From a virus: DNA of 20,865 bases. Numbering within the stretch: position 1 is the stretch's first letter; each line of letters begins with the position of its first letter. Positions 3,001 through 17,346 of this stretch are shown in pieces. The stretch is taken from the IMG/VR virus record IMGVR_UViG_3300020454_000104, positions 1 through 20,865 of that record. One strand, 5' to 3'. A program made the position numbers and the translations under genes. Under the pieces are notes generated by a model that was not told the DNA's origin, made no database searches, and was given only the letters and a program-made list of their open reading frames with translations.

Positions 3001-6000
3001 CTCTAATGGTGATCTTTATATTGGTAACCGTAAGATTGATGCTATTACTGGTGAGGAAGAGTTCCTCGAGAGAGCAGTTCTTGCAGCATCTGAAGATGAT
3101 ACCGATGTAATTACATCACTGGTTACATCTTTCGATACTCCTGTTACATTTAAAGATAAGATTACAGTTGAAGGTGTTGGATTCTTTAATAATAGAGTCA
3201 TTATCAACACTCAACCACCTAACGAAAATCCTGCTTTGACTATTCAGTCAAACCCAAGGAACGATGGTGGTGCTGAAGATCTTACTTTAACTAGAGGTAA
3301 CTTCGCTAACAGAAATGAAGGCGACATTACCATAGATCGTAATAAAATTTCCGCTGCACTTTTCCATGTAAAAGGTCGTGGTACTGCGGCATTCCCTGGA
3401 CAGGCATACAGTCTACGTTCTAACTTCTCATTCAATGAGAATGTCCCATCAAACAGAACTCCTGATCAGAACACAACATTCAGTAATGATCAGTTTGTAA
3501 GATACTACAACTCTACTGATGTTGAAGCAAATCCACAAGCGGGTGATATCCTATTCAAGGGTAACTCTGTTGAGAGAAGTGGTTCTCTTGGTTGGGTGTA
3601 TGCTAACTACTACACTAATATTCCTGAGTCAAGCATTCTTGATTTAGTAACAGATGGAAGTAGTAAGATCAGAATCAATTGGACTGGTTCTCTAACTAAC
3701 GCAAGCACAGGTATTGGACTTAGTGTTGGTAAGACAATTAGAATCCAAGGATTTAGTAATAGTTTAATTAACGGTAAGTGGGTAATTACTAAGGCAGATC
3801 TAACTGGAACTGATAACGACTTTATTGAATTTATTGTTGCTAATGCTATCACTGCTGCAACATATAACTGGACTGCTGCTGCTGAACCAACAGCGGTATT
3901 AGAAAGATCTGATGAAAACTTCAAAGAGTATGGCGTTATTGGTGCAGAAGCACTTAGAACAACCACAGATACATATGGTCAATTCAAATTAGGCGTTAAC
4001 ACACTTGCACGTACTGCACATGCTGCACATGAGTATGGATTCTTAACTTATAATGCTGGTGGTATCACATATGACCAGCAAGAACCAAGAGCAAACTTAG
4101 ATGTTGTTGGTAATGCATATATCAGTGGTAAGGCAATCAATGATTACCTCAATAACTCAACTACAAGTAAGACTGAGACTAACCTAGATGAGGCGTTCTT
4201 AGTTGGTGGATCTTCCGATTCTCCACAATCTAATGCACTTCTTAGAGTTTCTACTCAAGATACTAGAGTTGGTATTAATGTAAGTAGAGGTGAATTAACT
4301 GATACTCTGACTGTTCAAGGTACAGTTAGAATGCTTGGATCAGGTGCTAACTTAGATATTGATGGTGATCTTAATGTTGATGGCGGTGATATCACAACAA
4401 ATGCAGGTGTATTCAACTTATTACAAGGAAATGCACTCACAGTCAATGCATTTGGTCAGGCAACTACATTACATATTGCTGATCTAGCAGTCAACGCCCA
4501 ATCAATTAGTATTGGAACTAACGTTACTGCACAAACAATCTTTGATCTTCATACTAGTTCAACTGATTCCATAGTTAATATTGGAACTGTTGCTGATGGT
4601 GCTACAAATAAATCTGTTATCACAATCGGTGGTGCATTTAGTAATACTGCTAATTCAACATTAACAGTTAAGAATGCTCAGACTATCTTAGATGGTGATT
4701 TAGATGTAAATGGTGGAGATATTCAATCTGATTCTCAGATAATTAATCTTCTTACAAGAGGTGGTACTGCTTCTACAGTTAACTTTGCTACTAGAGCATC
4801 ACAATTTAATATTGGTGGTGTTGCTGGTTCAACAACTATTAGAAACTCACTTAAAGTCAATGGTGATACCGATATGTTCGGTGATGTTACCATGCATGGT
4901 GGATCTAACAGTGGTACAGTTACAGTTTCTAGAGCAAAATTTGGTACAAGTAAGATTGCTCACGCTAAGGGTTCTCTTGCTAACCTTAATGTTGACTTCT
5001 ACGAGTTTATTGCCGATATTGATGGTATTGAAATTATCAGTGCATTGAATACAGTCAATGGTACATTCTCTGTTCCTGATAACTATTTCCTTGATGGTAA
5101 CACTGTAAGATTCTCAGACACTACTGGATTCTCAAACAACGTTGATACTGTAACAACATACTTCATTGTTAATTCAACTGGTGTTGCTGGTGGTACATTC
5201 CAGATTGCTTCAACTGAAGGTGGTACACCAATCGTTGTTTCTGGAACCCCTGGAACTGCAACTGGTATCACATTACAAAACACTTTAGTTGATACTGGAT
5301 CTGGTACTACATCATGGACTTCAAACCCAGTTGATGCATCATATACTAATCTACCTGTTAACAACGTAGAGGGTATTGAGATCGGTGACGTTCTTCTCAT
5401 CAATAATGAGTTAGTTCAAGTTATATCCCCAGGTGCTGATACTAGCAATAGACTTGTTAAAGTTACTAGAGGTTTTGATTGTACAACTGTTACACAACAC
5501 AATGATAACAGTCCTATCGTTAAACTTGGTAAGTCTGCAGCTGCGACTCATTTAATTGGTAGAGTACCACAAAATAGTAATACTATTGCTATACAGCAAA
5601 TTGTTGATGTAACTGATGTAATTGAAGTTACACTCGGTGAACTAGAAGAGGGTGATGCAATCACATTCGGTAGTGTTGGTAGTATTACTGGCGTAAACAC
5701 AAACACAACATACTTTGTTGTTAATGCAGTCGATGATACACCTAACAGCATCACTAGATTTAATGTTTCTCTTGACCCAGGTGGTGCAGCGTTACCTCTA
5801 GCAGGTACTGTAAACAGTGCAACTATCACATTTAGTGATACTCTTGTCGCACTGTCTGAATTTGGTGGACAATTTAAAGTTAATGACTATCTAAGAATAA
5901 GTGCTGGTTCTACTTGCCCATCTGGTGAATTTGTACAGATTACTGCAGTTAACGATACTAACTCTGAGAAGTTTATCGTTAACAATGGTGCTAACCAAGA

Positions 6001-7051
6001 TAGATTCATTATTGATTCTGTATATGGTGGAGTTGATTCTACAATTCTTGATACTCAAGACTTTACAATTAACCTTACATCTGATCCTGCTACAGCTCCA
6101 ACTGATAACCAGTTTAAGATTGTAAATGGTCAACCTACTGCTAACACAAGACTCACAGTCAATAGTGATGGTGAATTAAATGTTGTTGGAGCTGGTACTG
6201 AAACTAATCCAAAAGCAAGAATTGATAAGTCTGGTAACCAGTGGTTAGCAGGTAACTTAAGAATTACTCTATTGGGTGATAAAGTTCCATCAGTAGATGA
6301 TGCAGATATGGCGTTATACGTCAACTCTACATCTGGTGATACTGAGATTGCTGGTTCTTTATCAATCGACAATGACTTTAATGTATTCAGTGGAACAACT
6401 GGTGTTCAGTTTGGTTCTGCTTCTACATCTAAATTCCAAGTTGATGCGTCAACTGGTGATACAAGAATCGGTGTTGCTGGTTCTGCACTAGGTGATGGTG
6501 ATTTAACAGTCAATGGTGGTCATGTTAACATTGTTAGCACATCTACTACAACTCCAAGTGCTACAGATTACGCTCTTAATATTAGCAATCTTGGTAACAG
6601 TGCAGATAGAAACTTTAGAATCCGTCAGGATGCTGCTGTTGATGCATTTGGTAACACTAACTTCTTTAATAGAAACGGTGGTCGTAGATGGGACTTCGTT
6701 AATGCTGATACAACACTAAGTAGTGGTAGAAACTACATCGTTGCTGTAGCAGCGACAACTGTTCTAACTCTACCAAGTGATGCTGAGACAGGAGATATGA
6801 TTAAATTTGTTGAGGTATCTGGAGCACTATCCTATCAAACTTCATTAATCATTCGTGCTCCTCTAAGCACTGCAATCATGGGTGATAGCACTGGAACTAA
6901 TGCGGGTGGTCTTGCTACTGCATATGCTGGTGGTGAACTAATCATCCAAACTAGAAATGCTGGATTTGGATTAGTCTACATGGGTACTAACGATGGTGGC
7001 GGTTCAGTAATTCCTCCAACATACCGTGGTTGGTGGTTAACAGAGATCTAA
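2..7051 (+). CDS. Giant virion structural / tail fibre-like protein (5' partial)
   Basis: The frame is open from the left edge, so the gene begins outside the window; the Met codon at 161 is internal. At least 2,349 residues are visible. The N-terminal part carries the end of a tandem repeat with an 85-residue period. Further in, residues around nt 4361, 4691 and 6494 repeat the motif DGDL(N/D/T)V(D/N)GG(D/H)(I/V), and two TTYF(I/V)VN modules occur near nt 5152 and 5705. These Gly/Asn/Thr/Ser-rich beta repeats are typical of elongated trimeric fibres. The C-terminal region ends in YRGWWLTEI, an ending I recognise from large cyanophage virion proteins. There is no signal peptide, membrane segment or enzyme motif. 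It is followed after 4 bases by the first collar-domain gene, consistent with a tail/fibre operon. Which T4 fibre protein it replaces, if any, is unknown. The structural role is confident, the exact position in the virion is not. Confidence 0.88.
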   Translation, partial: TATKTYPRSTDPSSGQALNISSVTTDTITVNVGGSPIVNHDVTNAAYDPATGVMVLTIGTHSLTTGTSIKIAANSLTFTCGMDNNATQHTYPRSGDPAYDTAINIDSVGADTITVNVGAAGSATYYCANVLSAQNTLFNIIEAGIDNAGTVNSTNAGVFAAITKTSPQQTIIPRLNPTVDSSQFANRATLFTVNAGGSNPHKFETGTPVRLVARPKSGMTPDERDVRLPIGFQPNRVYYVIAPGRDTQPFNYNQASVYNGIFDGGDQTKLMLANTKENAAAGIYIYSPETESIEDDVEILLQQYVLDERFDLTEYRVTFDGSSGTVMKTDVAHIFDKPTTGLGAAYLQKVFFRAEGSDGQVGTLPTLSGVGGQQISATKEFFVRYTSDDTFKIFNTAAEAIAGSPEVTLVNSTTQFWYVFANKRVSPLKFDPTFVDTSASRVPAITDGLWYLQTKDESTNDDNIFSRFNQTDYDAASGQSQTTDSNYRRLLDAREKEDRIYRLRYVQPKEFPGAVRKPNNGFVLKIRTDEKRNLLPQNIVLEPVGGAPTKAEFRNPYTQNNATEVLGMSRTAYDSAVQAGTIDPDFVYDPDNNPVVVNTSNYLRFSIRSAREKTVGSQQLLEVTAFNHSVDDTNAPSLKNTVFHTVKINSPQAGSFTASKTTSTPTNRVEWTGYSSGFAYIHAYFSVGSEHYLILKDVSARPSFDALTNTRFTQGSVYADLQEDANGGRDVKDNYLYVVQGANLFTITPGDTLDDSVGNTYKVISVNDVPDIDDTFYIFNTEEIQERVSGQQDGIYYLTAVRGNITPLPRGAGIGNNFQNFKFSQPISSLYPLDYKNDPTWYQVVDNNGTKDTLITDPQESSSYADNYTHGLVYVNDAKRSMTKEAVVDLTKSAYFDGYTYTGTNEIKATTGNATSGSEQRKISIAGDAASIHDQKVYVELRRPSIARSGNHTFEYLGFGPGNYSTGLPARQEVILSDFQDYYAQAKREDGGIVFYTGLNSNGDLYIGNRKIDAITGEEEFLERAVLAASEDDTDVITSLVTSFDTPVTFKDKITVEGVGFFNNRVIINTQPPNENPALTIQSNPRNDGGAEDLTLTRGNFANRNEGDITIDRNKISAALFHVKGRGTAAFPGQAYSLRSNFSFNENVPSNRTPDQNTTFSNDQFVRYYNSTDVEANPQAGDILFKGNSVERSGSLGWVYANYYTNIPESSILDLVTDGSSKIRINWTGSLTNASTGIGLSVGKTIRIQGFSNSLINGKWVITKADLTGTDNDFIEFIVANAITAATYNWTAAAEPTAVLERSDENFKEYGVIGAEALRTTTDTYGQFKLGVNTLARTAHAAHEYGFLTYNAGGITYDQQEPRANLDVVGNAYISGKAINDYLNNSTTSKTETNLDEAFLVGGSSDSPQSNALLRVSTQDTRVGINVSRGELTDTLTVQGTVRMLGSGANLDIDGDLNVDGGDITTNAGVFNLLQGNALTVNAFGQATTLHIADLAVNAQSISIGTNVTAQTIFDLHTSSTDSIVNIGTVADGATNKSVITIGGAFSNTANSTLTVKNAQTILDGDLDVNGGDIQSDSQIINLLTRGGTASTVNFATRASQFNIGGVAGSTTIRNSLKVNGDTDMFGDVTMHGGSNSGTVTVSRAKFGTSKIAHAKGSLANLNVDFYEFIADIDGIEIISALNTVNGTFSVPDNYFLDGNTVRFSDTTGFSNNVDTVTTYFIVNSTGVAGGTFQIASTEGGTPIVVSGTPGTATGITLQNTLVDTGSGTTSWTSNPVDASYTNLPVNNVEGIEIGDVLLINNELVQVISPGADTSNRLVKVTRGFDCTTVTQHNDNSPIVKLGKSAAATHLIGRVPQNSNTIAIQQIVDVTDVIEVTLGELEEGDAITFGSVGSITGVNTNTTYFVVNAVDDTPNSITRFNVSLDPGGAALPLAGTVNSATITFSDTLVALSEFGGQFKVNDYLRISAGSTCPSGEFVQITAVNDTNSEKFIVNNGANQDRFIIDSVYGGVDSTILDTQDFTINLTSDPATAPTDNQFKIVNGQPTANTRLTVNSDGELNVVGAGTETNPKARIDKSGNQWLAGNLRITLLGDKVPSVDDADMALYVNSTSGDTEIAGSLSIDNDFNVFSGTTGVQFGSASTSKFQVDASTGDTRIGVAGSALGDGDLTVNGGHVNIVSTSTTTPSATDYALNISNLGNSADRNFRIRQDAAVDAFGNTNFFNRNGGRRWDFVNADTTLSSGRNYIVAVAATTVLTLPSDAETGDMIKFVEVSGALSYQTSLIIRAPLSTAIMGDSTGTNAGGLATAYAGGELIIQTRNAGFGLVYMGTNDGGGSVIPPTYRGWWLTEI
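17..355 (+). repeat. End of an 85-residue tandem repeat in the fibre gene
   Basis: Two copies of a 28-residue core (nt 17-100 and 272-355) begin with YPRS and end with DTITVNVG. By eye 19 of 28 residues match. The spacing is exactly 255 bases. No third copy follows at nt 527, so this is the right-hand end of an array that probably continues left of the window. Confidence 0.75.
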
Positions 7052-7055
7052 TTAT

Positions 7056-8600
7056 ATGGCTTCTAATTACGAAACACAGAAAAAAATGCGTGCTGCTCAA
7101 GTCGGCACCATTATGCCTTGGGTTGGAGATTTATCTACTCAACCTGATGGATGGTTAGAATGCAATGGACAAACAATAGAGGCAACTGACTATCCTGTTC
7201 TTGCTTCAGTTATTGGTAACACATACGGTCCTGCTAATGGACTCAATAATAGAACATATGGTAATTATATACTTGGTGATCAGTTCAGACTACCTTCATT
7301 AAATGGTAGAGTTCTAACTGATTATGAACCAAGTTTAGTCAACGTATCTAATCTACAGATGGGACAAACATATCCCAGTGGTGCGGTTGGTGGTTTAGTT
7401 ATCATTCAAGGTGAAAGCGATACTACTCGTACTTCACAAACTGTTAACGTAACGAGCAACACTGCTCAACTTGTTCTTGGAACTGGTGTAACTGGATCAG
7501 CATTACAACTAACAGTTGACTGTGATGTTAACGGACGTGTTGATGTATCTAATATTGTTAATAAAGGTAGTGGATTTGCTACAGGAGATAAATTAACAAT
7601 CCCAGCAACTGTATTCTCTGGAAATGATGATGTTGTTCTTCAGGTTGCATGGGTATTACCATCTGTTGCTGATGTACTTACACCAACAGCGGCAGGAACA
7701 ACAAAATTAATTGATGGTGATGGATCTACCGTCACTCCACCAACAGCATTAAATGCTACTGCTGATTTGAATTTTGTTGTGACTGACTCTCAGAACATGA
7801 CTGCACAGATTAGAAACTTTAGTATTAATCCTCCTGCATATTTTAAAAGTTATTATACTATCCCTAGAAAATTAAGTAAGGATCATATGCCTTCACATAG
7901 GCACGTAGGACCCGATGGTTCAGCAGCAGGATATAGTCGTGGTGACTCTGATGCAGGTTATGTTGAGGGATTTCAATGCCCTGGACTTGTAGGTGCTGTT
8001 GAATCTAATCAAAAACAAAAACGATTGGATGCTGGTGCAGGTGGTGATATTGATACTGTTGACCCTGGAACTCTCTTAGTCACATATTATGAAGAAGGCG
8101 TGACTACAATGACTACGTTCCAACCTACAACACAGAATGTTGCAAGTGTTGGTACACAAGTTCCAATGCCTACTTGGACTGGTCCTGTTCCTAGAGCATT
8201 AAACGGTACATATCCTAACGAATGTAACTATCGTGAATCTTCTCAGTCAGGTTTCTTTGCAAATAAAAAGAACTGGTATGGTAATCAGACTGCTGATCAA
8301 ATTAACCAAGCAACTGGTACATCATTAACATATCCTACTACACTAAATCATAATAAAGAAAATATGACTGGTGTTGGTAACTCAATTAATTCTCATAACC
8401 ATTATTCATTTGAAGTTGTTATGAATGCTGGTTATGTTTCACCACCCACAATTGTTCCCGTAGATAACATTCAAATTCAGAGTAATTTAACTGGTGCTCC
8501 AACCAATATTGGTGTACAAAACATCCCGTCAGCACTAAATATTAACGTAGATGTTAGGACTCCAGCATTGTCCATGATTTACCTAATTAGAGCATACTAA
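7056..8600 (+). CDS. Tail collar-domain protein 1 (putative receptor-binding/fibre tip)
   Basis: Residues about 17-89 form a phage tail collar domain: GTIMPWVG, then PDGWLECNG, then DYPVLASVIGNTYG and a closing FRLPSLNGR. The collar family is found at short tail fibre and fibre-tip proteins, acting outside the cell at the host surface. Residues about 150-185 hold a module reading NGRVD...NKGSGFATGDKLTI, a pattern seen in other phage tail proteins. His-x-His motifs at 281-283 (preceded by H277) and 447-449 recall the metal-binding HxH motifs of T4 gp12/gp37 tips. The C-terminus ends PALSMIYLIRAY, similar to the next two proteins. The gene follows the giant fibre gene by 4 bases and its stop overlaps the next start (TAATG). 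Collar assignment is firm; adhesin function is inferred. Confidence 0.88.
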   Translation: MASNYETQKKMRAAQVGTIMPWVGDLSTQPDGWLECNGQTIEATDYPVLASVIGNTYGPANGLNNRTYGNYILGDQFRLPSLNGRVLTDYEPSLVNVSNLQMGQTYPSGAVGGLVIIQGESDTTRTSQTVNVTSNTAQLVLGTGVTGSALQLTVDCDVNGRVDVSNIVNKGSGFATGDKLTIPATVFSGNDDVVLQVAWVLPSVADVLTPTAAGTTKLIDGDGSTVTPPTALNATADLNFVVTDSQNMTAQIRNFSINPPAYFKSYYTIPRKLSKDHMPSHRHVGPDGSAAGYSRGDSDAGYVEGFQCPGLVGAVESNQKQKRLDAGAGGDIDTVDPGTLLVTYYEEGVTTMTTFQPTTQNVASVGTQVPMPTWTGPVPRALNGTYPNECNYRESSQSGFFANKKNWYGNQTADQINQATGTSLTYPTTLNHNKENMTGVGNSINSHNHYSFEVVMNAGYVSPPTIVPVDNIQIQSNLTGAPTNIGVQNIPSALNINVDVRTPALSMIYLIRAY

Positions 8601-9745
8601 TGAAGTTTTTAACACGAGAAAGATCAAAATTAGGATCTGCACCTGGGACTATTATTCAGTGGGCTTTACCTATTCAAGATGGTGATCCAGATGGATCTAC
8701 AAATGTTGTGGATTTACCTGCAGGGTATCTTAAATGTGATGGTTCAATATACACAGAGAGATTATATCCTGAGTTAGCACGTATTCTCGGTACAGGTGCT
8801 GCGTGTATTTACAAAAAAAGTGATGTAACTTTACTAACAGATCAGTTTCAAGTTCCAGACATGGGATCTAAACATATTGAAGCATCTGTTAATGCTAACG
8901 TTGGTACATATAGAAACATTGAAAAAACCACTGCTAATACTACTATTACAAAAGCGGGTGTTGGTGTAGAAATAGTATCAAATGTAGGTAATACAGCAAA
9001 CGTTGGATTCAATGGTGTGTTTACCGTACCATCCCAAACTTTTGCTTTGAACGGTAATGTAGGGTGGACCGTACCAACAAACACAGAGAGTGAACAGGTT
9101 GCTGCAACAGCAATTGGTCCTCATATGCACTATACTTCTACTTCTCGTGTGACTGTTAAGGAAGATCCTGGGCAACCAGCAGGAGCTTATGGAAATACAT
9201 CTAGACCATATTATTTGAGAACTGCTGACGCAACAACTGCTACTCCAGACTGTAATCAAATTGCTGCAGCATTTTATCAACAGACTGTACAAGGAGGCGG
9301 TGGACCAAATAATTGTAATGCTGGGTGTGCTGGGTTTGGTTCTTATTTTATTGGTTCATATGGTGGTGCTGTTTCAAACTGGCCAGTAACTAAGACCATC
9401 TCAACCATAACTGCAAATAGTTGGCCATCACTTGTAAATCAACAAGTTGGTAATCTAAGACCATATGATGTTGTATCAAATACTGGTGCTTATGCATATC
9501 CACTTGTAAGAAATACTGAGCAGGTAGTGTCGTCTCCCCCAGGTGCTGATACTACTAACTTGACTATACATTCTCATAGAATTGAAAAAGAAATCGGTGA
9601 TACTGCTTTTAATGCTACAACTGATGTCGAAACTATTAGACCAGACGGATTACAAGCGTCTGTAAATATAAGAACTGATACTGATACTAAGTTTGACGAC
9701 ATTGTATCTCCTTATGTTGTTATGGAATTCCTAATTAAGTATTAA
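8600..9745 (+). CDS. Tail collar-domain protein 2
   Basis: Second of three consecutive collar proteins (381 residues). The collar domain spans about residues 15-88: APGTIIQWAL, LPAGYLKCDGS, LYPELARILGTG and DQFQVPDMG. Compared with the first protein, an extra loop rich in Asp and Gly (about 26-38) precedes the GYLKCDG strand. HxH motifs lie at 175-177 and 324-326, and the chain ends VVMEFLIKY. A Gly/Asn-rich middle (about 200-260) with several Cys residues is unlike its neighbours. The start codon overlaps the previous stop (TAATG), suggesting translational coupling. It is probably a structural tail tip or fibre component; the partner and receptor are not visible. Confidence 0.85.
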   Translation: MKFLTRERSKLGSAPGTIIQWALPIQDGDPDGSTNVVDLPAGYLKCDGSIYTERLYPELARILGTGAACIYKKSDVTLLTDQFQVPDMGSKHIEASVNANVGTYRNIEKTTANTTITKAGVGVEIVSNVGNTANVGFNGVFTVPSQTFALNGNVGWTVPTNTESEQVAATAIGPHMHYTSTSRVTVKEDPGQPAGAYGNTSRPYYLRTADATTATPDCNQIAAAFYQQTVQGGGGPNNCNAGCAGFGSYFIGSYGGAVSNWPVTKTISTITANSWPSLVNQQVGNLRPYDVVSNTGAYAYPLVRNTEQVVSSPPGADTTNLTIHSHRIEKEIGDTAFNATTDVETIRPDGLQASVNIRTDTDTKFDDIVSPYVVMEFLIKY

Positions 9746-9746
9746 C

Positions 9747-10820
9747 ATGGCTATAAGATTAGAACACAAATATAATCATCATTATAGTGATATGCATGAC
9801 GATAGTGGAATACCTATTGGTACTATCATGTGTGTCTTTGTAGATACAAATGGAAATGGTGCTGCCGATGTTGCTAATAACTATCCTGGCTGGTTATACT
9901 GTGATGGAGCACAACATAGTGTTAATAATTTTCCAATGTTATATGATGTGATTGGAGATAAGTATGGTGGTACTGCTCCTAATACAGTCACATTATCTGA
10001 TTGGGGTAACACTGCAGGTAGTGTACAGAATGCTGTATTTAATGTACCTGATATGAGAATGAAAAGAGTTGTAGGTCCTGGTGGTGTAGACGGTGTAGGA
10101 TCTATCACACCAGACAATGCACCAATGAACGTAGGTGATGTTGGTGGTGAATGGTATATTTCAAGAGCTAGACAAAACGAAGAATATGGTGTAGGATCAG
10201 TAAGGGTACAAGGTTATAGTGACTGTATTGGATTTGTTTCTGGTACACTAGGAGGAACAGCAGAAATTACTATTGGTCCTCTACAATCAAGAATAATAAA
10301 TGGTCCACCCGCACACGGTCATACTGTTTTAAATTCTGAAAGGGATCAACGTAATGGAGGACAAAATGGTACTCCTGCTGATGGTGAAAAGTCTACAAAC
10401 TATATCACCAACACAGGACCAATTGATCAGTTTGATCCTACAAATGGACAACAGGCAGAACATACTCATTACTTAGCAGAATATTCTCCTGTTAAATCAG
10501 GAACTGATTCACAGTATTCTTACTGTACTTCTGCACCATATACAAATTCACCTGATGCATATACAAATGCCTATGGTGCTACAAAAGTAAATGATGGTGT
10601 TGTAAATCAACGAGGACAAACAGTTAATATGTTTGAATCTCAAGCATTGACTGGTGCTAATGCAGTTACACCTGCACAGGCAGGTATGTCTCTTAATGAA
10701 GGGACAATCACTATGACTCCTGGGGAGCAACTTAGTGTAATTGCAGGTATTATTCCACAAACTGCAGTTCCACTTGTACTAAAATACTTTAGGGTAAAAT
10801 ATTTAATTAAAGCTTGGTAA
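9747..10820 (+). CDS. Tail collar-domain protein 3
   Basis: Third collar protein (357 residues). The collar core covers about residues 22-105: IPIGTIMCVF, PGWLYCDGAQ, FPMLYDVIGDKYGG and FNVPDMRMKR. HxH motifs occur at 190-192 and 239-241, and the C-terminus KYFRVKYLIKAW matches the hydrophobic/basic tail of the other two. It begins one base after the previous stop and is followed three bases later by a dioxygenase gene, so structural genes and enzymes appear to share a transcript. The N-terminus is His-rich (HKYNHHYSDMH), which is not seen in the other two. Its role is taken to be tail tip or fibre, by family. Confidence 0.86.
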   Translation: MAIRLEHKYNHHYSDMHDDSGIPIGTIMCVFVDTNGNGAADVANNYPGWLYCDGAQHSVNNFPMLYDVIGDKYGGTAPNTVTLSDWGNTAGSVQNAVFNVPDMRMKRVVGPGGVDGVGSITPDNAPMNVGDVGGEWYISRARQNEEYGVGSVRVQGYSDCIGFVSGTLGGTAEITIGPLQSRIINGPPAHGHTVLNSERDQRNGGQNGTPADGEKSTNYITNTGPIDQFDPTNGQQAEHTHYLAEYSPVKSGTDSQYSYCTSAPYTNSPDAYTNAYGATKVNDGVVNQRGQTVNMFESQALTGANAVTPAQAGMSLNEGTITMTPGEQLSVIAGIIPQTAVPLVLKYFRVKYLIKAW

Positions 10821-10823
10821 ATT

Positions 10824-11525
10824 ATGGCGATTACAACTCCTGGATCATCGAATTTTAATGAGATGGTCAGTCCCATCATTCCTGTTAATATGATGGGTGG
10901 GAAAGCAGAATATGATGATTTTATTGCTGTTTATAAAAACTTTATGCCCTCTGCGGTATGTAATGATATTATAAGTTTTTATAAACAATGGAAAGATCAG
11001 GCAGTTAAGCAACATATGGAAAAAGATCTTCGTAGTCGTCAAGCATTTGATAACTATGAAGAATCTATGAGTGGAGACGGTCAGTTTGCTACTGGTGAAC
11101 TTGGGAGAAAAGATCTATCCATTATGTTGGAGACTCTCAACACACCATTAACTGCTAGAATTAATCAGTATCTACAATCTGTAGTAAATGATTACTGTAA
11201 ACAATATAATACACTCAATGGTACAGCACTAACTTCTTGGGCAGTTAAGTTTCAAGAAACTCCTGAGGGTGGTGGGTATCATGTATATCATTATGAACGT
11301 GGTTCATGGAGTGAAACTGCTAGGGAACTTGTTTGGATGATATATCTTAACGAAGAATTTGAAGGTGGTGAAACAGAATTTTTATATCAAAAGCGTAGAA
11401 TTAAACCTACCACAGGCACTGTAGTTCTATGGCCAGCAGGGTATACTCATACACATAAAGGAAACTTAGTACTCTCAGGAACTAAATATATTGTAACTGG
11501 ATGGTACTATCAGCAACCCGTTTAA
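10824..11525 (+). CDS. 2OG/Fe(II) dioxygenase, prolyl-4-hydroxylase-like (HxE type)
   Basis: A 233-residue member of the 2OG/Fe(II) oxygenase superfamily, which couples decarboxylation of 2-oxoglutarate to hydroxylation of a substrate. The double-stranded beta-helix core is in the C-terminal half: GGYHVYHYE gives metal ligands H156 and E158, WMIYLNE then GGETEFL are typical core strands, and the distal ligand is H211 in THTHKGN. K221, ten residues on, fits the 2OG-binding basic position, Lys rather than Arg as in collagen prolyl-4-hydroxylases. HxE replaces the usual HxD. A close relative lies at 16702. The gene follows collar protein 3 by 3 bases, so it is probably a late gene. The substrate is unknown; tail proteins or host proteins are possibilities. 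Confidence 0.85.
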   Translation: MAITTPGSSNFNEMVSPIIPVNMMGGKAEYDDFIAVYKNFMPSAVCNDIISFYKQWKDQAVKQHMEKDLRSRQAFDNYEESMSGDGQFATGELGRKDLSIMLETLNTPLTARINQYLQSVVNDYCKQYNTLNGTALTSWAVKFQETPEGGGYHVYHYERGSWSETARELVWMIYLNEEFEGGETEFLYQKRRIKPTTGTVVLWPAGYTHTHKGNLVLSGTKYIVTGWYYQQPV

Positions 11526-11528
11526 GAC

Positions 11529-12386
11529 ATGTCTCTCACAAATAAAACAATATCAATCAGTGGATTGAATAAGACTATCACTCGTGGTGGTTTCTCTAGA
11601 ACTTTTACAGATAAAGACTGGACTACGTTCATAACTCCTCTTATCTACCCATTATGGGATAGTGATAAAGATCTTTTAGTAGCATTTAACTATGTTGACT
11701 CTCCAGTAGAAACATGGTCATGTGATAAGAAAAAGTATGTTCGTAATCATACTACAGGAGAATACTTTTGGAAACCATATATTTTTACTGAAGTAGAGAT
11801 CGATGTAGTACAGAAGTTTGTTACTGATATAGATGAAGCATTTGATGCACAACTCTCAACTGAATTTGAGCATCAAAGTCTTAAAATGAATCAAGTTATT
11901 GATGAAGCTAAAGGTTTATCTCTCTCAAGAATTAAATCATGGAGAGACTTCTTCTTACATTCTAGTGATTGGACAATGTTAGAAGATGCACCCGTTACTG
12001 CTGATGAAAAAGTACAATGGAAAACATATAGACAAAAATGTCGTGAACTTCCAGATCTGTTTTCATCTGGTACTGAAGTTCTTGCTGAGATTAAAGTACC
12101 TATCGACCCTATTGTTTACAAAAAGAATTATCTACCCTATAATAGTGGAGCAACATATCTTGGAAGTGATGATCAGTGGGTAACATTCCCAGGAAAAGAT
12201 ATCCCAGGTGGTGCAATGGAAGAAGCAATGAGAAGATATGTTGATATCGCATTACAACTATCAAGACCTTCACCATTGTTCAACGTATCTGATATTTCAC
12301 ATCTTACTGATCCAGTTGAAGTTCTAATCAAACAAATTGAGAGAGAACAAGCACTACTAGATGAAGCAAAAGCAGCAGAGGGCTAA
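11529..12386 (+). CDS. Putative tail/fibre assembly chaperone-like protein
   Basis: A 285-residue protein. Residues about 134-176 (RIKSWRDFFLHSSDWTM, then WKTYRQKCRELPD) match the pattern of phage tail assembly chaperone proteins, in which R..RD.LL..SDWT is followed by W..YRQ.LRD.P. Residues 1-100 have no family I recognise, although they are rich in Trp and Tyr. The C-terminal 30 residues look helical and charged (EVLIKQIEREQALLDEAK), possibly a coiled coil. In other phages such proteins are encoded next to the fibre whose folding or attachment they assist, which fits the collar genes just upstream. It sits between two dioxygenase genes and its stop overlaps the next start (TAATG). The chaperone-like segment is moderately supported; the overall function is inferred. 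Confidence 0.55.
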   Translation: MSLTNKTISISGLNKTITRGGFSRTFTDKDWTTFITPLIYPLWDSDKDLLVAFNYVDSPVETWSCDKKKYVRNHTTGEYFWKPYIFTEVEIDVVQKFVTDIDEAFDAQLSTEFEHQSLKMNQVIDEAKGLSLSRIKSWRDFFLHSSDWTMLEDAPVTADEKVQWKTYRQKCRELPDLFSSGTEVLAEIKVPIDPIVYKKNYLPYNSGATYLGSDDQWVTFPGKDIPGGAMEEAMRRYVDIALQLSRPSPLFNVSDISHLTDPVEVLIKQIEREQALLDEAKAAEG

Positions 12387-13075
12387 TGATTCGACAATAT
12401 AAATGGTTAAGTGAAGTAATCTGTAAAAATATTAATGATCTTTATAATAGTGGTAATTTTGTAGACGGTAAAGAGTCTGGTACTCACAACAGAGACATTA
12501 AAAGAAATAGAGAACTAGATGGAGATGCAGTTGATACAGCTACTGAGTTATTCATGAAAGCATTTAGAGAAGATCCATGGTGTACTTCTCTACATCTTAG
12601 ACATCATACTATGCCCATGTTCAATGAATATGATGCAGTAAAAGATAATAATGGAGTATATAATTTTCATTGTGATAATGCTATCATGAATGGATTACGT
12701 ACTGATCTAGTTATTCTTACTGCTATGAATGATGAGAGTGAGTATGAAGGTGGTGATTTAACAATCAAAGTTGGTAATATTGATGTAGGTTTCCGACTAC
12801 AGGCAGGTCAAAGTATTGTATTCGACCCTAATTTATGGCATACAGTGTCCCCAGTTACTAAGGGACATCGTAGAATGTGTGTAATTTGGGGAGAAGCACT
12901 CATCCGAGACGCATGGATGAGAGAAATGTTCTATGATTATATGGATGTATCTGCAAGATGTTTAAATAGTATAGATCAAGATAAATGGTATGAGCAAGGA
13001 AATCAAATGGATCCTGCTACATACCTTGGAGCACTCAGACAAAAAATACTACGTCAGTATTCAACCCCACTATAA
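12386..13075 (+). CDS. 2OG/Fe(II) dioxygenase, PKHD-type hydroxylase-like
   Basis: A 229-residue protein with a complete canonical facial triad: H95-x-D97 in YNFHCDNAI, distal H152 in LWHTVSPVTKGHR, and the 2OG-binding R162 exactly ten residues later. The GGDLTI strand at about 122-127 is also characteristic. This is the PiuC/YbiX (PKHD-type hydroxylase) style of the superfamily, in size and motif spacing. Its start overlaps the preceding stop (TAATG) and an AGAGGG ribosome-binding site lies just upstream. It belongs to the same run as the tail genes. The Fe(II)/2OG chemistry is well supported; the substrate is unknown. Confidence 0.87.
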   Translation: MIRQYKWLSEVICKNINDLYNSGNFVDGKESGTHNRDIKRNRELDGDAVDTATELFMKAFREDPWCTSLHLRHHTMPMFNEYDAVKDNNGVYNFHCDNAIMNGLRTDLVILTAMNDESEYEGGDLTIKVGNIDVGFRLQAGQSIVFDPNLWHTVSPVTKGHRRMCVIWGEALIRDAWMREMFYDYMDVSARCLNSIDQDKWYEQGNQMDPATYLGALRQKILRQYSTPL

Positions 13076-13078
13076 ATC

Positions 13079-13444
13079 ATGGAAAATTTTCTAGGACTAC
13101 AAGAATTAATTTCTCTATCATCACTACAATCTTATGCTAACGATAAAGTAATTTTGTTCTATAATGCATCTAATATTAGAGACTTAGAAGCAACAGGTAA
13201 TACTACTAAACTCAACACAGTTTATGAGTTCTATAAAAATTTAATGCCTGATGGATTATACGCAGAGTTTTTTAAGTCATCCTTTGGTGGTATAACTTAC
13301 ACTGATGAATATTCAGCACAAGATTTTGCTGAAGACTATTTCCCACGTCCTGCACTATCTGTTGATTCTGATCACTATGTCTATGCGTGTGTATATAAAA
13401 ATGGTGTTATTGTATGGGAAAATACTGATCCTCCGACAAGTTAG
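13079..13444 (+). CDS. Hypothetical protein, 121 residues
   Basis: I do not recognise a family. The chain is acidic and rich in Tyr and Phe, has no membrane segment, and alternates short hydrophobic strands (VILFYNA, YVYACVYKNGVIVWEN) with loops, suggesting a small folded alpha/beta domain. It begins 3 bases after the PKHD-type oxygenase gene with no clear ribosome-binding site, so it may be translated by coupling. Its last 38 bases overlap, tail to tail, the end of the minus-strand oxygenase gene. It is the last plus-strand gene before the inversion, which may place it at the end of the structural operon. No hairpin terminator is visible at the convergence. Confidence 0.7.
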   Translation: MENFLGLQELISLSSLQSYANDKVILFYNASNIRDLEATGNTTKLNTVYEFYKNLMPDGLYAEFFKSSFGGITYTDEYSAQDFAEDYFPRPALSVDSDHYVYACVYKNGVIVWENTDPPTS

Positions 13445-14207
13445 AAGGACGAAGTTGAGTAACTAAAAAAGAATCTCCTGGCTCATGGAACCCATGAAAT
13501 TGTATAGCAGTCTCTACACCTTCTAACCAAGCAGTAAAGTGTCCATGAGGTTTACGAAATTCTAAATCAGTTTGCTTCTTTGGATACAATAATACATCAC
13601 TTTCTTTAATTTTGTGTGGTAAATTATATTCTACACATGCAGGTTCAAATGGACGAGTGTTCCATAAATTGTACATAAGTGTAACTCTTTTGTCTCCAGG
13701 TTGTATATGTCCCATACCAGAGGGAACTCCATGAAAGTATGGTAGTGTCCAAGAAATATGCTTACCCATCTTTGGATAAGACCAAAATGTCCAATCATCA
13801 TTACCAGTAACATACACACCGTCTTTCTTTAACCAATCATGATGTTGGTCACATACGACAGTGGGTTGTCCACCGTCACATAGATATGTTACAGTAGAAA
13901 AAGGTGCAGCAATATACTCACCAGTTTGTCTAAATCTATCGACATCACCGTCTACATGAAAATACCATTGACTATCAATAGTATCATGTGATCTAATCCA
14001 CCACTCAGCACCTAGATATCCGTCTAGTCCATGTTGATGTGCAGATCTGTATATAAAGTTTTCAATTATATTTGATGGTGGTTTGCTTAATTCATACCAC
14101 CAAGTTAACTTTTCTTCTGGATCTTGTGCTAGAATAGTATTAGCTTCTACACGTAGATCTAAAGCACTCTCTTCAGTGAGATAATTATTATATGATTCAA
14201 TACTCAT
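13407..14207 (-). CDS. 2OG/Fe(II) dioxygenase-like protein on the opposite strand
   Basis: The only convincing minus-strand gene (266 residues). Motifs fit a 2OG/Fe(II) oxygenase: H84-V-D86 in WYFHVDGDVDR, a core strand STVTYLCDGGQPTVV, distal H159 in LPYFHGV and R174 in GDKRVTLMYN. The His-to-Arg gap of 15 is longer than the 10 seen in the PKHD-type neighbour. About 90 residues follow the core, with a further His-rich stretch (about 221-241) whose purpose is unclear. The gene converges with the 121-residue gene (38-base overlap) and diverges from the gene at 14206, the two start codons sharing the palindrome CATG. Any promoter must lie inside the neighbouring coding sequence. The family call is good, though less certain than for the others. 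Confidence 0.78.
   Translation of the reverse strand: MSIESYNNYLTEESALDLRVEANTILAQDPEEKLTWWYELSKPPSNIIENFIYRSAHQHGLDGYLGAEWWIRSHDTIDSQWYFHVDGDVDRFRQTGEYIAAPFSTVTYLCDGGQPTVVCDQHHDWLKKDGVYVTGNDDWTFWSYPKMGKHISWTLPYFHGVPSGMGHIQPGDKRVTLMYNLWNTRPFEPACVEYNLPHKIKESDVLLYPKKQTDLEFRKPHGHFTAWLEGVETAIQFHGFHEPGDSFLVTQLRPSNLSEDQYFPIQ
14127..14135 (+). promoter_or_regulatory. Possible extended -10 box for the 14206 gene
   Basis: TGC followed by TAGAAT (14130-14135, five of six matches to TATAAT) lies inside the minus-strand oxygenase gene, about 70 bases before the divergent start. It resembles the TGC-extended -10 boxes at 15531 and 18290. No convincing -35 box is present, so support is weak; the main argument is that the divergent gene needs some promoter here. 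Confidence 0.28.
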
Positions 14208-14907
14208 GACTAATAAAATTCATCCGCTGTTCCCTACAGTTATTTACCAGTGTAAGGTTGATGGACATGAAAAATGGAAAGAATTGTTGGAATCGAAAAC
14301 AGAACATCATTTTGACCCATGCACATTTGCAGACAAATATGCTAAAGGATATCATCTAACTGGTGAAGCAAGAGGTAAGAGTGTAATGCATAAAGATGAG
14401 GATCTCTCTTCGTTCTTCACTATTATAGCAGATAATGTTCGTGAATGCTTAACTAGTTCTGGTATCAAACCAGACATGCATGATGTTCACTTCATGAAGT
14501 CGTGGTGTACTATCAAAGAGTATACAGACACTATGTCTGAACATAACCATGCATGTTCTGATCTATCCTTTGTATACTATGTTAACACACCATACAAAAC
14601 TGGTCTAGTATTTACTGTTCCAAAGAATCCAAATGAGTATTTTGGTGGAGTCTTTGATCCTAAAGATGATCCACGTTCACATACATTTGAGGATAACTTT
14701 ATTAATGCATGTAGCACATTCCTACCAGTAGAGGCAGGAGATCTATTATTATTTCCTGGGTCCATGCGTCACTCAGTACCACCAGAGGGACATAAGAAAG
14801 GAAAGTATTTAAGAAGTATTGCAGGAGATATTAAGATATCATTGAAAGAAAAATATATTAACCTAGAGACAGGACTTATTCATCCTTCACATTGGAGATC
14901 ATTTTAA
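14206..14907 (+). CDS. Putative 2OG/Fe(II) oxygenase (HxH type)
   Basis: A 233-residue protein opening with HPLFPTVIY, the characteristic N-terminus of the TIGR02466/PF13759 putative 2OG/Fe(II) oxygenase family. The core shows H113-N-H115 in SEHNHACSDLSFVYYVN, then GDLLLFPGSMRHSV with distal H189, and R203 in LRSIAGDIKI. The position normally occupied by Asp or Glu in HxD/E is His. An insertion of about 30 residues between the second and third core strands contains FGGVFDPKDDPRSHTFED. The start shares CATG with the divergent oxygenase gene, and no good ribosome-binding site is visible. The stop overlaps the next start (TAATG). The family assignment is good; catalytic activity is less certain. 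Confidence 0.78.
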   Translation: MTNKIHPLFPTVIYQCKVDGHEKWKELLESKTEHHFDPCTFADKYAKGYHLTGEARGKSVMHKDEDLSSFFTIIADNVRECLTSSGIKPDMHDVHFMKSWCTIKEYTDTMSEHNHACSDLSFVYYVNTPYKTGLVFTVPKNPNEYFGGVFDPKDDPRSHTFEDNFINACSTFLPVEAGDLLLFPGSMRHSVPPEGHKKGKYLRSIAGDIKISLKEKYINLETGLIHPSHWRSF

Positions 14908-15527
14908 TGCAGCAGTTTCTTGATTTTAGATGTCGTATCATTAATTACACTACACATACATTTGATGTGTTAAAAATTCTTAATGCAATTTATGATACAA
15001 GTTGGGATAAACGTATTAAGAACGCTACCATGGTAGGAGGATATCAAATACGTGAAGCATATCTTAATGAGATATGTAATGAAGAGATGAGAAAATTTAT
15101 GGATGAGGTTGTAGTTGATGCAGTACAACAATATTGTATGCAAGAGTATGCTGCAGGCAATGTTGGCGATCGTTTTGGAGATGGACCTGGGCAGGGTGGA
15201 TTACCACCTATCTCTATTGATCTAACTGAATATTGGATTAACGTCATGCCCCCAGGAGGGTATCAAAGGATACATTCACATCCTAACGCTAATTTAAGTG
15301 GTACATTTTATCTACAGGCACCTGAGGGATCAGGAGATCTGTTTATTCCGTCACCATATATAAATGGAATTGAAAATATAATCTCTACAGCGTCAGAATA
15401 TATCATACCACCAAAAGTCAGAGAAGGATGGTTACACCCGTCATCACTCCCTCACTCGGTATCCAGAAATGAATCAGATGAAGATAGAGTCTCAATTTCG
15501 TATAATTTAAAACTAAAAGCTGTGTAA
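14907..15527 (+). CDS. Putative 2OG/Fe(II) oxygenase (HxH type)
   Basis: I place the start at 14907, not the in-frame Met at 14892, because 14907 overlaps the previous stop (TAATG) and has GGAG nine bases upstream. The 206-residue product belongs to the PF13759-type putative 2OG/Fe(II) oxygenases: PPGGYQRIHSHPNANLSG gives H123-S-H125, LPHSVSRNES gives distal H183, and R194 in DRVSISYN is the likely 2OG anchor. A Gly-rich loop (about 88-99, DRFGDGPGQGG) precedes the core. It is a distant relative of the genes at 14206 and 15851. It ends just before a short gap with a promoter, so it is likely the last gene of its transcript. Confidence 0.82.
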   Translation: MQQFLDFRCRIINYTTHTFDVLKILNAIYDTSWDKRIKNATMVGGYQIREAYLNEICNEEMRKFMDEVVVDAVQQYCMQEYAAGNVGDRFGDGPGQGGLPPISIDLTEYWINVMPPGGYQRIHSHPNANLSGTFYLQAPEGSGDLFIPSPYINGIENIISTASEYIIPPKVREGWLHPSSLPHSVSRNESDEDRVSISYNLKLKAV

Positions 15528-15530
15528 TTG

Positions 15531-15539
15531 TGCTATAAT
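15531..15539 (+). promoter_or_regulatory. Sigma70-type extended -10 promoter
   Basis: A perfect TATAAT (15534-15539) preceded by TGC forms an extended -10 box. It lies in the 33-base gap upstream of the gene at 15561 and would start transcription near 15546. The -35 region (AACTAA at 17-base spacing) is poor, which is tolerated when the -10 is extended. The same TGCTATAAT recurs at 18290. Confidence 0.6.
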
Positions 15540-15560
15540 AAAATTAAGTAACTTATTAAT

Positions 15561-15860
15561 ATGAAAGATCAAGGTTCAGTAGGGAATGAATCCTCTGCTA
15601 TTAAGTATGATAGAGCATTATCTCTATTCACAGAGTCAGTAATGAAACCTGACGCTGATTTACGTGGTTGTGCTCACAACCAAGGATGTTTCGATGAACT
15701 CATGGAGATCAGGACACATGTATTAGACTATCTCAAAACATTAAAGGAAGTCACACACCATACTAATCCTGATGAGAGTGATGAAATAGAAGCAGCGAAG
15801 TTACAAGAGCAGAAAGAATACGTTAACGATCAAAAACCATATTATTACAAATGGAGATAG
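15561..15860 (+). CDS. Hypothetical protein, 99 residues
   Basis: I recognise no family. The protein is acidic and probably helical, with a predicted long helix at about 45-65 (FDELMEIRTHVLDYLKTLKE) and a second at about 75-88. The end, KPYYYKWR, is basic and aromatic. It is the first gene after an extended -10 promoter and has no clear ribosome-binding site. Its last 10 bases overlap the start of the following oxygenase gene. There is no signal peptide, membrane segment or metal motif. Placement suggests an accessory or early-expressed product, but no role can be read from it. Confidence 0.72.
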   Translation: MKDQGSVGNESSAIKYDRALSLFTESVMKPDADLRGCAHNQGCFDELMEIRTHVLDYLKTLKEVTHHTNPDESDEIEAAKLQEQKEYVNDQKPYYYKWR

Positions 15861-16468
15861 ACCCACAAGTAATTAATATTTGTCCTACATTTATTATTAC
15901 ACAGAAATTTCCACCCTCTAAGGCATGGAGGATAAAGAAACAGATACAAGAACTAGAGTTTCTTTCAAGTCCGAGACAAACTAAGAACACTCGTATCTTA
16001 GATCTCCCTTTCATGAGAGAATTAAAAGCTACGATTACAGGTACAATAGAAAATCTTATACACAATCTCGACAAAGATTCTAAAAATGCAGGTTTTAAAT
16101 TCTTAGATTCATGGGCAAACCAGTATGATAAAGGGGAAGCGGCACAGGTACATGTACATCCAAACTCACAGTTTAGTGGAGTAGTATTCTTTGACGATGA
16201 TGATAAGTTGATGTTTCATAGACCAGATCCATGGCATGATCCAACGCTACCTATTAATATGATAACAAAAGATAATAATGATTATTACAGGAAGCATACT
16301 CATCAACAAATTACTGCACAAGCAGGCACTATCCTTGTATTCCCTTCAATGTTAGAGCATTCTACTATGCGTTCTGATGGAGATAGAGTCACTGTATCAT
16401 TCAATACTTTCCTCACTGGAGACTTCTGTATGGAAGGACATACATTACAAGGAACAAATCTTGCTTGA
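15851..16468 (+). CDS. Putative 2OG/Fe(II) oxygenase (HxH type)
   Basis: A 205-residue PF13759/TIGR02466-like protein. It begins with a strand INICPTFIITQKF comparable to the PTVIY opening of the family. Core motifs are H101-V-H103 in VHVHPNSQFSGVVFF, GTILVFPSMLEHS with distal H170, and R179 in GDRVTVSFN. Its HPN..FSG segment matches HPNANLSG of the gene at 14907, so the two are paralogous. Between core strands is an insert of about 40 residues (about 118-155) with MFHRPDPWHDP. It starts inside the 3' end of the 99-residue gene (10-base overlap). Its stop codon is followed closely by a consensus-like promoter for the next gene. The substrate is unknown. Confidence 0.83.
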   Translation: MEIDPQVINICPTFIITQKFPPSKAWRIKKQIQELEFLSSPRQTKNTRILDLPFMRELKATITGTIENLIHNLDKDSKNAGFKFLDSWANQYDKGEAAQVHVHPNSQFSGVVFFDDDDKLMFHRPDPWHDPTLPINMITKDNNDYYRKHTHQQITAQAGTILVFPSMLEHSTMRSDGDRVTVSFNTFLTGDFCMEGHTLQGTNLA

Positions 16469-16493
16469 CCTTATGCACATTATCAGTTACAAT
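16465..16493 (+). promoter_or_regulatory. Sigma70 promoter TTGACC-17-TACAAT
   Basis: TTGACC (16465-16470) and TACAAT (16488-16493) are separated by exactly 17 bases, five of six matches to each consensus. The -35 box overlaps the stop codon of the preceding oxygenase gene. Transcription would start near 16500, about 17 bases before the gene at 16517. It probably drives that gene, the HxE oxygenase and the small genes after it. Confidence 0.75.
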
Positions 16494-16516
16494 AGAGATT
16501 ATACAACCTATTAATC

Positions 16517-16705
16517 ATGGATCTTCCTACAAACGTACCGTTAGACACAAATCAGATCAGATTTATTCTAGATATGATGATGGGTTGCCCTCTAGGACAC
16601 ACAAGTTCATACTCACGACAACATGACGTGATTGCAGAGGATCTTTACAATCATCTTGAAGCACACTTAAATGCAGCGAATGCTGAACTATCTACAGGTA
16701 AATGA
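16517..16705 (+). CDS. Small hypothetical protein, 62 residues
   Basis: A short acidic protein without a family I can name. The middle holds MMMGCPLGHTSSYSRQHD, followed by a helix AEDLYNHLEAHLNAANAEL. It lies directly after a strong sigma70-type promoter and its stop overlaps the next start (ATGA), so it is the leader gene of an operon with the HxE oxygenase. There is no ribosome-binding site before its ATG. Short length and conserved-looking composition are compatible with a small phage regulator or adaptor, but nothing in the sequence proves it. Confidence 0.72.
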   Translation: MDLPTNVPLDTNQIRFILDMMMGCPLGHTSSYSRQHDVIAEDLYNHLEAHLNAANAELSTGK

Positions 16706-17346
16706 GCGAAGATTTCATCAGAACATATGATAAAGTATTGACGAGACAGTTATACGATAACGTCATATCAATCTGTGATCAAAAGAAAGCATTTCAAATT
16801 CCTCGTTCTGTTAACAGAAAACAGGAGCATGTAAATGATATGCAACTACTGTTAGAACCAATCTATCCTGAGGTTGCCCGTGAGATCACGGAACTAGTGA
16901 TGCATCGTATGGTTATACCATATTTTGCTGAGTTTCCTGCTAGTAGAATGGAAGGAAGATGGACTAGTGGTTCGACTCTATATCAAAAGACAGAACCCAC
17001 AGGTGGATATCATATTCTACATGCGGAAGCAACTGGATGGTATAATAGTACTCGTGTCCTAGCATGGATGATTTACTTGAATGACCTTAATGATGAGGAT
17101 GATGGTGGTGAGACCGAGTTCTTATATCAAAGTCGAAGAGTCAAACCAGTAAAAAATCTAGGAGTAGTGTGGCCAGGTGGTATCACACATATGCATAGAG
17201 GTAATCCACCATTGAAGAAGACCAAAAAGATTCTCACTGGATGGATTCAACCATGTGGTGATATGCACCTCTATGAACCAAATTTCATTGCTGCAGAACA
17301 GGATGATATGCAAATTAAAAAAGATGGAAAACCATACAAACGATGA
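16702..17346 (+). CDS. 2OG/Fe(II) dioxygenase, prolyl-4-hydroxylase-like (HxE type), second copy
   Basis: A 214-residue relative of the oxygenase at 10824, sharing WMIYLN, GGETEFLYQ and the pattern THxH(K/R)GN. Metal ligands are H107 and E109 (GGYHILHAE) and H165; K175 takes the 2OG-binding position ten residues on, again Lys instead of Arg. The C-terminal 30 residues (from about 185) are an extra tail with KKDGKPYKR at its end, absent from the first copy. Translation is coupled to the upstream 62-residue gene (ATGA overlap) and to the downstream membrane protein (ATGA). It is transcribed separately from the first copy, so the two may act at different times. The substrate is unknown. Confidence 0.86.
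   Translation: MSEDFIRTYDKVLTRQLYDNVISICDQKKAFQIPRSVNRKQEHVNDMQLLLEPIYPEVAREITELVMHRMVIPYFAEFPASRMEGRWTSGSTLYQKTEPTGGYHILHAEATGWYNSTRVLAWMIYLNDLNDEDDGGETEFLYQSRRVKPVKNLGVVWPGGITHMHRGNPPLKKTKKILTGWIQPCGDMHLYEPNFIAAEQDDMQIKKDGKPYKR

Follow-up and report, generated by a model that had tools for sequence, protein, structure and literature searches.

Oxygenase genes linked to collar-domain fibre genes and a tail-fibre chaperone in a T4-like cyanophage fragment

Why does a T4-like cyanophage carry seven putative 2-oxoglutarate (2OG)/Fe(II) oxygenase genes behind its tail-fibre genes? The locus lies in IMG/VR record IMGVR_UViG_3300020454_000104, a 20.9 kb fragment of such a phage that was analysed over its whole length and is here called the window. 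From left to right it holds a giant fibre gene, three collar-domain fibre genes (c1 to c3), oxygenase A, a tail-fibre assembly chaperone, oxygenase B, a small gene (h), oxygenase C on the minus strand, and oxygenases D, E, F and G (Table 1). All seven oxygenase open reading frames (ORFs) are present where an earlier note on this DNA had placed them, with a total span of 6523 bp. That note took the density of the genes as the mark of a system modifying tail proteins, and its interpretation is partly supported: linkage to fibre genes and chaperone, and not density, is the special feature of the locus.

The linkage was read with locally built profiles in 80 IMG/VR loci that were picked for resembling A and fall into 31 clusters at 90% identity. 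The last collar gene stands directly upstream of A in all 77 loci whose contig reaches it, mostly across a gap of 1 to 15 bp, and the chaperone stands directly downstream of A in 80 of 80. The tie between oxygenases and tail-fibre genes that the earlier note had proposed is borne out by this arrangement, as is its remark that A begins three bases behind a collar gene (c3 ends at 10820 and A starts at 10824). B comes next after the chaperone in 71 of 77 loci and h in the other six, so that h follows B or, where B is missing there, the chaperone. Among 28 loci picked by fibre c2, 23 were read on contigs of sufficient reach, and every one of these has A. Furthermore, of the 16 cyanophage genomes in Sullivan et al. 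2010, all except P-HM1 were scanned; among these 15, collar genes exceed the Pfam cut-off in two, S-PM2 and Syn1, and in both PF13640 genes lie directly behind the last collar gene. S-RSM4, likewise not selected through A, is a third isolate with collar genes over the cut-off and oxygenases directly behind the last of them. The fibre-oxygenase-chaperone linkage is apparently unreported.

C and D are fixed in the cassette within one clade, C always reversed. In loci selected by C, the genes run c3-A-chaperone-B-h-C(reversed)-D over the extent that each contig covers, and the position and reversed orientation of C are kept in the 34 loci listed. The start codons of C and D overlap head to head (window 14205-14208), with CATGA invariant in 16/16 aligned relatives, and loci with as little as about 52% protein identity still show the two genes in this place and orientation with overlapping starts. 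The order, number or presence of E, F and G differs from one relative to another.

On the minus strand at 14241-14248, 34 bases ahead of the C start, stands GGTAAATA, and the stretch of D that holds it is invariant in 16 relatives, silent positions included. It is a candidate late-type promoter for C, and a weak lead. The T4 late promoter TATAAATA does not occur in the window.

Each of the seven genes codes for a protein of the 2OG/Fe(II) type; six are placed by Pfam cut-offs and C by its predicted fold. The curated cut-off for both PF13640 and PF13759 is 27 bits; the profile search that the earlier note had suggested puts A (44.7 bits), B (34.1) and G (40.8) above it in PF13640 (2OG-FeII_Oxy_3) and D (43.1), E (67.9) and F (60.3) above it in PF13759 (2OG-FeII_Oxy_5). 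The nearest solved relatives of A are the bacterial prolyl-4-hydroxylase structures 3itq/5hv0, matched by its profile at 1.4e-8. The best match of B to NCBIfam PRK05467 models is at 1.9e-31, but its 109.3 bits are below the equivalog cut-off of 143. D, E and F fall within PF13759/TIGR02466, whose solved members 2rg4 and 3bvc bear the name uncharacterized proteins. Grouping by hidden Markov models joins A, B and G, places D, E and F in a second group and leaves C apart, in agreement with the several lineages seen earlier; A and G share 32.5% identity over 203 amino acids and are clear paralogues. A also matches PHROGs 274, 2297 and 3531, named endonuclease V, DNA endonuclease and ferrochelatase, and genes named ‘DNA endonuclease V’ in S-MbCM7 (21198-22194) match PF13640 below the curated cut-off; such names on oxygenase-like genes may have been mis-propagated.

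C has no Pfam or NCBIfam match, phrog_23934 (without assigned function) is its only family match, and profile comparison with A and B detected no relation. Its AlphaFold2 model, built from 28 relatives with the P-HM2 homologue left out, has a predicted local distance difference test score (pLDDT) of 85.3 and a predicted template-modelling (TM) score of 0.87, and replaces an earlier model from 11 sequences with a pLDDT of 58. The top PDB matches of the new model in Foldseek are 2OG/Fe(II) enzymes, proline hydroxylase H11 first (E 9.1e-5, probability 1.0). TM-scores normalised by C are modest, 0.36-0.47 among the best PDB matches, and C is therefore counted, on its predicted fold, as a divergent member of the 2OG/Fe(II) superfamily. 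Two relatives of C differ from the rest of the family: in P-HM2 (42612-43358) an arginine replaces the distal histidine, and the protein is possibly inactive, and in one locus (3897-4702) the gene is split into two ORFs and is possibly broken.

The signature read in the earlier note, His-x-(D/E/H) with a distal His and an Arg or Lys, is nearly invariant when counted across non-identical relatives. In A these residues are H156 (104/104), E158 (99/104, with D in 5), H211 (104/104) and K221 (102/104); in B, H95, D97 and H152 (each 94/94) and R162 (93/94); and in C, H84 (33/34), D86 (32/34), H159 (33/34) and R174 (34/34). D, E and F each have HxH, a distal H and R, with HxH at the metal position in 27/27, 13/14 and 29/33 relatives, respectively (four relatives of F have HxD). 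The position of the usual carboxylate ligand is taken by glutamate in A and G and by histidine in D to F. A, B, C and G have HxD or HxE; the canonical site of two histidines and one carboxylate is lacking in D, E and F. The ratio of nonsynonymous to synonymous substitution against the closest relative is 0.08-0.36 for the seven genes, a level comparable to the 0.22-0.25 of the fibre genes, and purifying selection acts on all seven oxygenases.

The seven genes form a cluster, and B, the third plus-strand gene of the run, is an oxygenase as claimed; they are not strictly in a row, as the chaperone (11529) and the ORFs at 13079, 15561 and 16517 intervene. In a 63 kb contig with the same locus, seven oxygenases (C added by hand) fall within 6.5 kb, where random placement gives a mean of 3.1 (P<=0.0005). 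Such clustering is not peculiar to this phage. Whole-record Pfam scans of seven named phages, weak matches included, found 7 to 21 such domains each (21 in P-SSM2), and six of the seven show denser clusters than a random-placement model, Syn1 being the exception. S-RSM4 has eight 2OG domains within 6.5 kb (5.3 kb span, one weak), Syn9 has six within 6.5 kb and seven in 7.4 kb (three of those below the curated cut-off), S-SM1 has five in its cluster, and the S-SCSM1 genome was published with 24 2OG genes (PMC9602691). Similar runs are already present, unremarked, in published phage genomes, and density was rejected as a sign of a special system because the runs of S-RSM4, Syn9 and others are comparable.

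The reading preferred here, given about an even chance of being right, is that A and B hydroxylate the collar-domain fibres during chaperone-assisted assembly, with C and D joined to the cassette and E to G as variable members. We infer fibre modification from the gene linkage, and with it co-expression with the fibres, the fibre proteins as substrates and an effect of the modification. The locus would be a T4-like cyanophage fibre module consisting of the giant fibre, three collar fibres, the chaperone and a 2OG/Fe(II) oxygenase set. A and B would act inside the infected cell on collar-fibre residues, or on a fibre-chaperone intermediate, while the chaperone folds the fibres. The reaction would be side-chain hydroxylation with host 2OG, O2 and Fe(II), and its effect would be to adjust how the fibres fold, how stable they are or how they bind receptors. 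C and D would have been recruited into the fixed cassette in this clade and probably share fibre hydroxylation with A and B; E, F and G are variable additions, which may target the same fibres or be cargo.

HxH pairs bind metal in the T4 fibre proteins gp12 and gp37. All four histidines of two HxH pairs are invariant in c1 (44/44 relatives) and c2 (57/57), where they are among the few invariant residues, and c3 has two HxH pairs, the first kept in 99/100 relatives; by analogy, the collar pairs resemble metal-binding fibre tips. A bolder and rather improbable version of the preferred reading is a chaperone-coupled hydroxylation line, in which several oxygenases would finish the collar fibres, perhaps near the invariant HxH, and so set stability or receptor choice. 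The virion-proteome text of S-SCSM1 (45 proteins) names no 2OG oxygenase, which fits enzymes acting before assembly; 13 of the virion proteins detected have no known function (PMC9602691), and a Pfam scan of S-SCSM1 gave no collar match.

Several points weigh against fibre hydroxylation by this cassette. Most loci were selected by similarity to A, and B is absent from its place in 6 of 77. In cyanophages, many members of the oxygenase families seen here are encoded at a distance from fibre genes; in ACG-2014j, Pfam detects no oxygenase next to a second APC gene (104 kb); and a relative in a Rhizobium phage lies away from tail genes. Given the last case, extension of the fibre link to phages other than cyanophages is unsupported. 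The neighbouring fibres contain no run of at least four collagen-like G-x-y units, and a collagen-type substrate is unlikely for that reason. Canonical 2OG chemistry is not assured in D, E and F, because three histidines stand at the metal site. The fibre substrate, the enzyme activity and an oxidised virion residue are putative, as is the stepwise chemistry suggested in the earlier note.

Cargo is the alternative that survives best, possible although on the unlikely side: only A and B would be fibre-linked, and C to G would be unrelated genes carried behind the fibre genes, with small-molecule or host substrates of their own. The changing order, number or presence of E, F and G among relatives is what such cargo would be expected to show, as are the many 2OG genes in varied contexts across cyanophage genomes and the different family composition of runs between phages. 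It fits less well with C and D, which keep position, orientation and overlapping starts to about 52% protein identity, and with purifying selection on all seven.

The oxygenases could also be aimed at the infected cell, at envelope proteins, ribosomal proteins or parts of lipopolysaccharide, and their linkage to fibres would then come from co-evolution with host type. In phages, genes for host interaction are often grouped with those for fibres. In addition, works cited in PMC9602691 describe bacterial 2OG hydroxylases whose targets are ribosomal proteins. Against this, A is tightly packed between fibre gene and chaperone in every testable locus, a place that a host-directed enzyme would not need, and host targets are considered unlikely.

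A role in lowering or sensing 2OG, and thus steering the host nitrogen response, was proposed on the basis of NtcA sites and many 2OG genes (Sullivan et al. 2010; PMC3037559), but is very improbable for this locus, where the gene order tracks the fibre genes and a bulk 2OG sink would call for neither seven diverged enzymes nor the conservation of their active sites and order. Equally remote is AlkB-like repair or modification of nucleic acids, proposed for Syn9 and in keeping with some cyanophage 2OG genes that adjoin uvsX/uvsY (PMC2984593): the cassette sits in a fibre module, A matches prolyl hydroxylases and not AlkB, no window protein matches an AlkB-type Pfam family at E<=10, and in the fold search with C, AlkB comes up solely at the level of the weaker matches.

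The features of the window are collected in Table 1. Membership of the chaperone in PF16778 is supported by a score of 43.4 bits against a cut-off of 26.6. A near-identity DNA search in phages gave short matches only, among them to Prochlorococcus phages, which suggests a picocyanobacterial host.

Table 1. Features annotated in the 20.9 kb window, with the matches on which each assignment is based
Feature	Coordinates	Strand	Match or basis
Giant tail-fibre protein, 5' end lost at window edge	161..7051	+	phrog_4527 short tail fiber protein, E 0, 1880.7 bits
Collar-domain fibre c1	7056..8600	+	PF07484 9.8e-15
Collar-domain fibre c2	8600..9745	+	PF07484 3.5e-6
Collar-domain fibre c3, last fibre gene	9747..10820	+	PF07484 4.5e-10
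Oxygenase A, prolyl-4-hydroxylase-like, H156-x-E158...H211, K221	10824..11525	+	PF13640 2.7e-11
Tail-fibre assembly chaperone (Phage_tail_APC)	11529..12386	+	PF16778 3.1e-11; phrog_4697 tail assembly chaperone 2.8e-27
Oxygenase B, PKHD/PiuC/YbiX-like, H95-x-D97...H152, R162	12386..13075	+	PF13640 5.5e-8
Small conserved cassette protein h, no assigned function	13079..13444	+	phrog_4883 2.7e-6
Oxygenase C, divergent predicted 2OG fold, H84-x-D86...H159, R174	13407..14207	-	AlphaFold2 model, Foldseek PDB matches
Oxygenase D, HxH type	14206..14907	+	PF13759 5.7e-11
Oxygenase E, HxH type	14907..15527	+	PF13759 1.1e-18; TIGR02466 above cut-off; PDB 2rg4 2e-11
Small phage ORF between E and F, non-oxygenase	15561..15860	+	phrog_495 5.2e-30, no assigned function
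Oxygenase F, HxH type	15851..16468	+	PF13759 2.6e-16
Small phage ORF between F and G	16517..16705	+	phrog_20742 3.4e-8, no assigned function
Oxygenase G, paralogue of A, HxE type	16702..17346	+	PF13640 4.3e-10

Related arrangements recur in other phages. P-SSM2 has a fibre gene, a small gene, an APC chaperone and a PiuC oxygenase, followed by another fibre gene; its chaperone, used as the sole query, found one relative. In S-SSM7 the gene after an APC gene matches PF13640 at 3.5e-5, which does not reach the cut-off. Three genes separate the S-RSM4 run from a tail-fibre-like gene upstream of it, and the Syn9 run comes after a putative fibre gene and two tryptophan halogenase genes. Tryptophan halogenase and oxygenase genes together lie downstream of fibres in Syn9 (8966-12071) and S-SSM7 (15511-16998), the halogenase being a second type of oxidative enzyme.

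Published proposals for cyanophage 2OG genes comprise DNA repair (PMC2984593), 2OG and nitrogen control (PMC3037559) and general host metabolism, and the 2OG genes of one phage were described as scattered through its genome (PMC9146016). No report of fibre modification was found in the literature searched, which is weak evidence of absence, as most subscription journals lay outside the search. If correct, a chaperone-coupled line would be a virion-maturation modification system without a counterpart described in the literature found. If the fibres are indeed hydroxylated, the way in which phages abundant in the ocean recognise their hosts would hinge on this reaction, and through it on the O2, iron and 2OG of the cell. 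By its constant position, with the last fibre gene on one side and the chaperone on the other, A suggests a definite substrate, and the linkage makes the old question of the role of the oxygenases testable by mass spectrometry on existing isolates.

Among known enzymes, bacterial prolyl-4-hydroxylase (3itq, 5hv0) differs from A in that the usual aspartate of the metal triad is a glutamate in A, and the fibres next to A contain no collagen-like repeat. B matches YbiX/PiuC (PRK05467) over most of its length and differs in its linkage to a phage fibre chaperone. D, E and F match TIGR02466/PF13759 (2rg4, 3bvc), a family without assigned function, and have H-x-H at the metal site. Among phage loci, genes 133-142 of S-RSM4 (FM207411) resemble the window in their eight-domain 2OG run downstream of a tail-fibre-like gene, but belong to a separate fibre locus near gp13 and not to a collar cassette. 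S-PM2 (AJ630128) has no gene annotated or detected at the positions of C and D and has fewer oxygenases; its genes 219-231 nevertheless share the order of the window, with gp12-like fibres, a 2OG oxygenase, T4-GC 741 in the chaperone position and PiuC, and the run continues similarly with T4-GC 166 (a PF13640 match) and a phytanoyl-CoA-dioxygenase. In Sf-CH1b (PV340850, 34-51 kb), local profiles find no C and other oxygenase lineages lie in between, but, as in the window, collar genes are followed by A, the chaperone, B and four more annotated 2OG-type oxygenases over ~6.4 kb.

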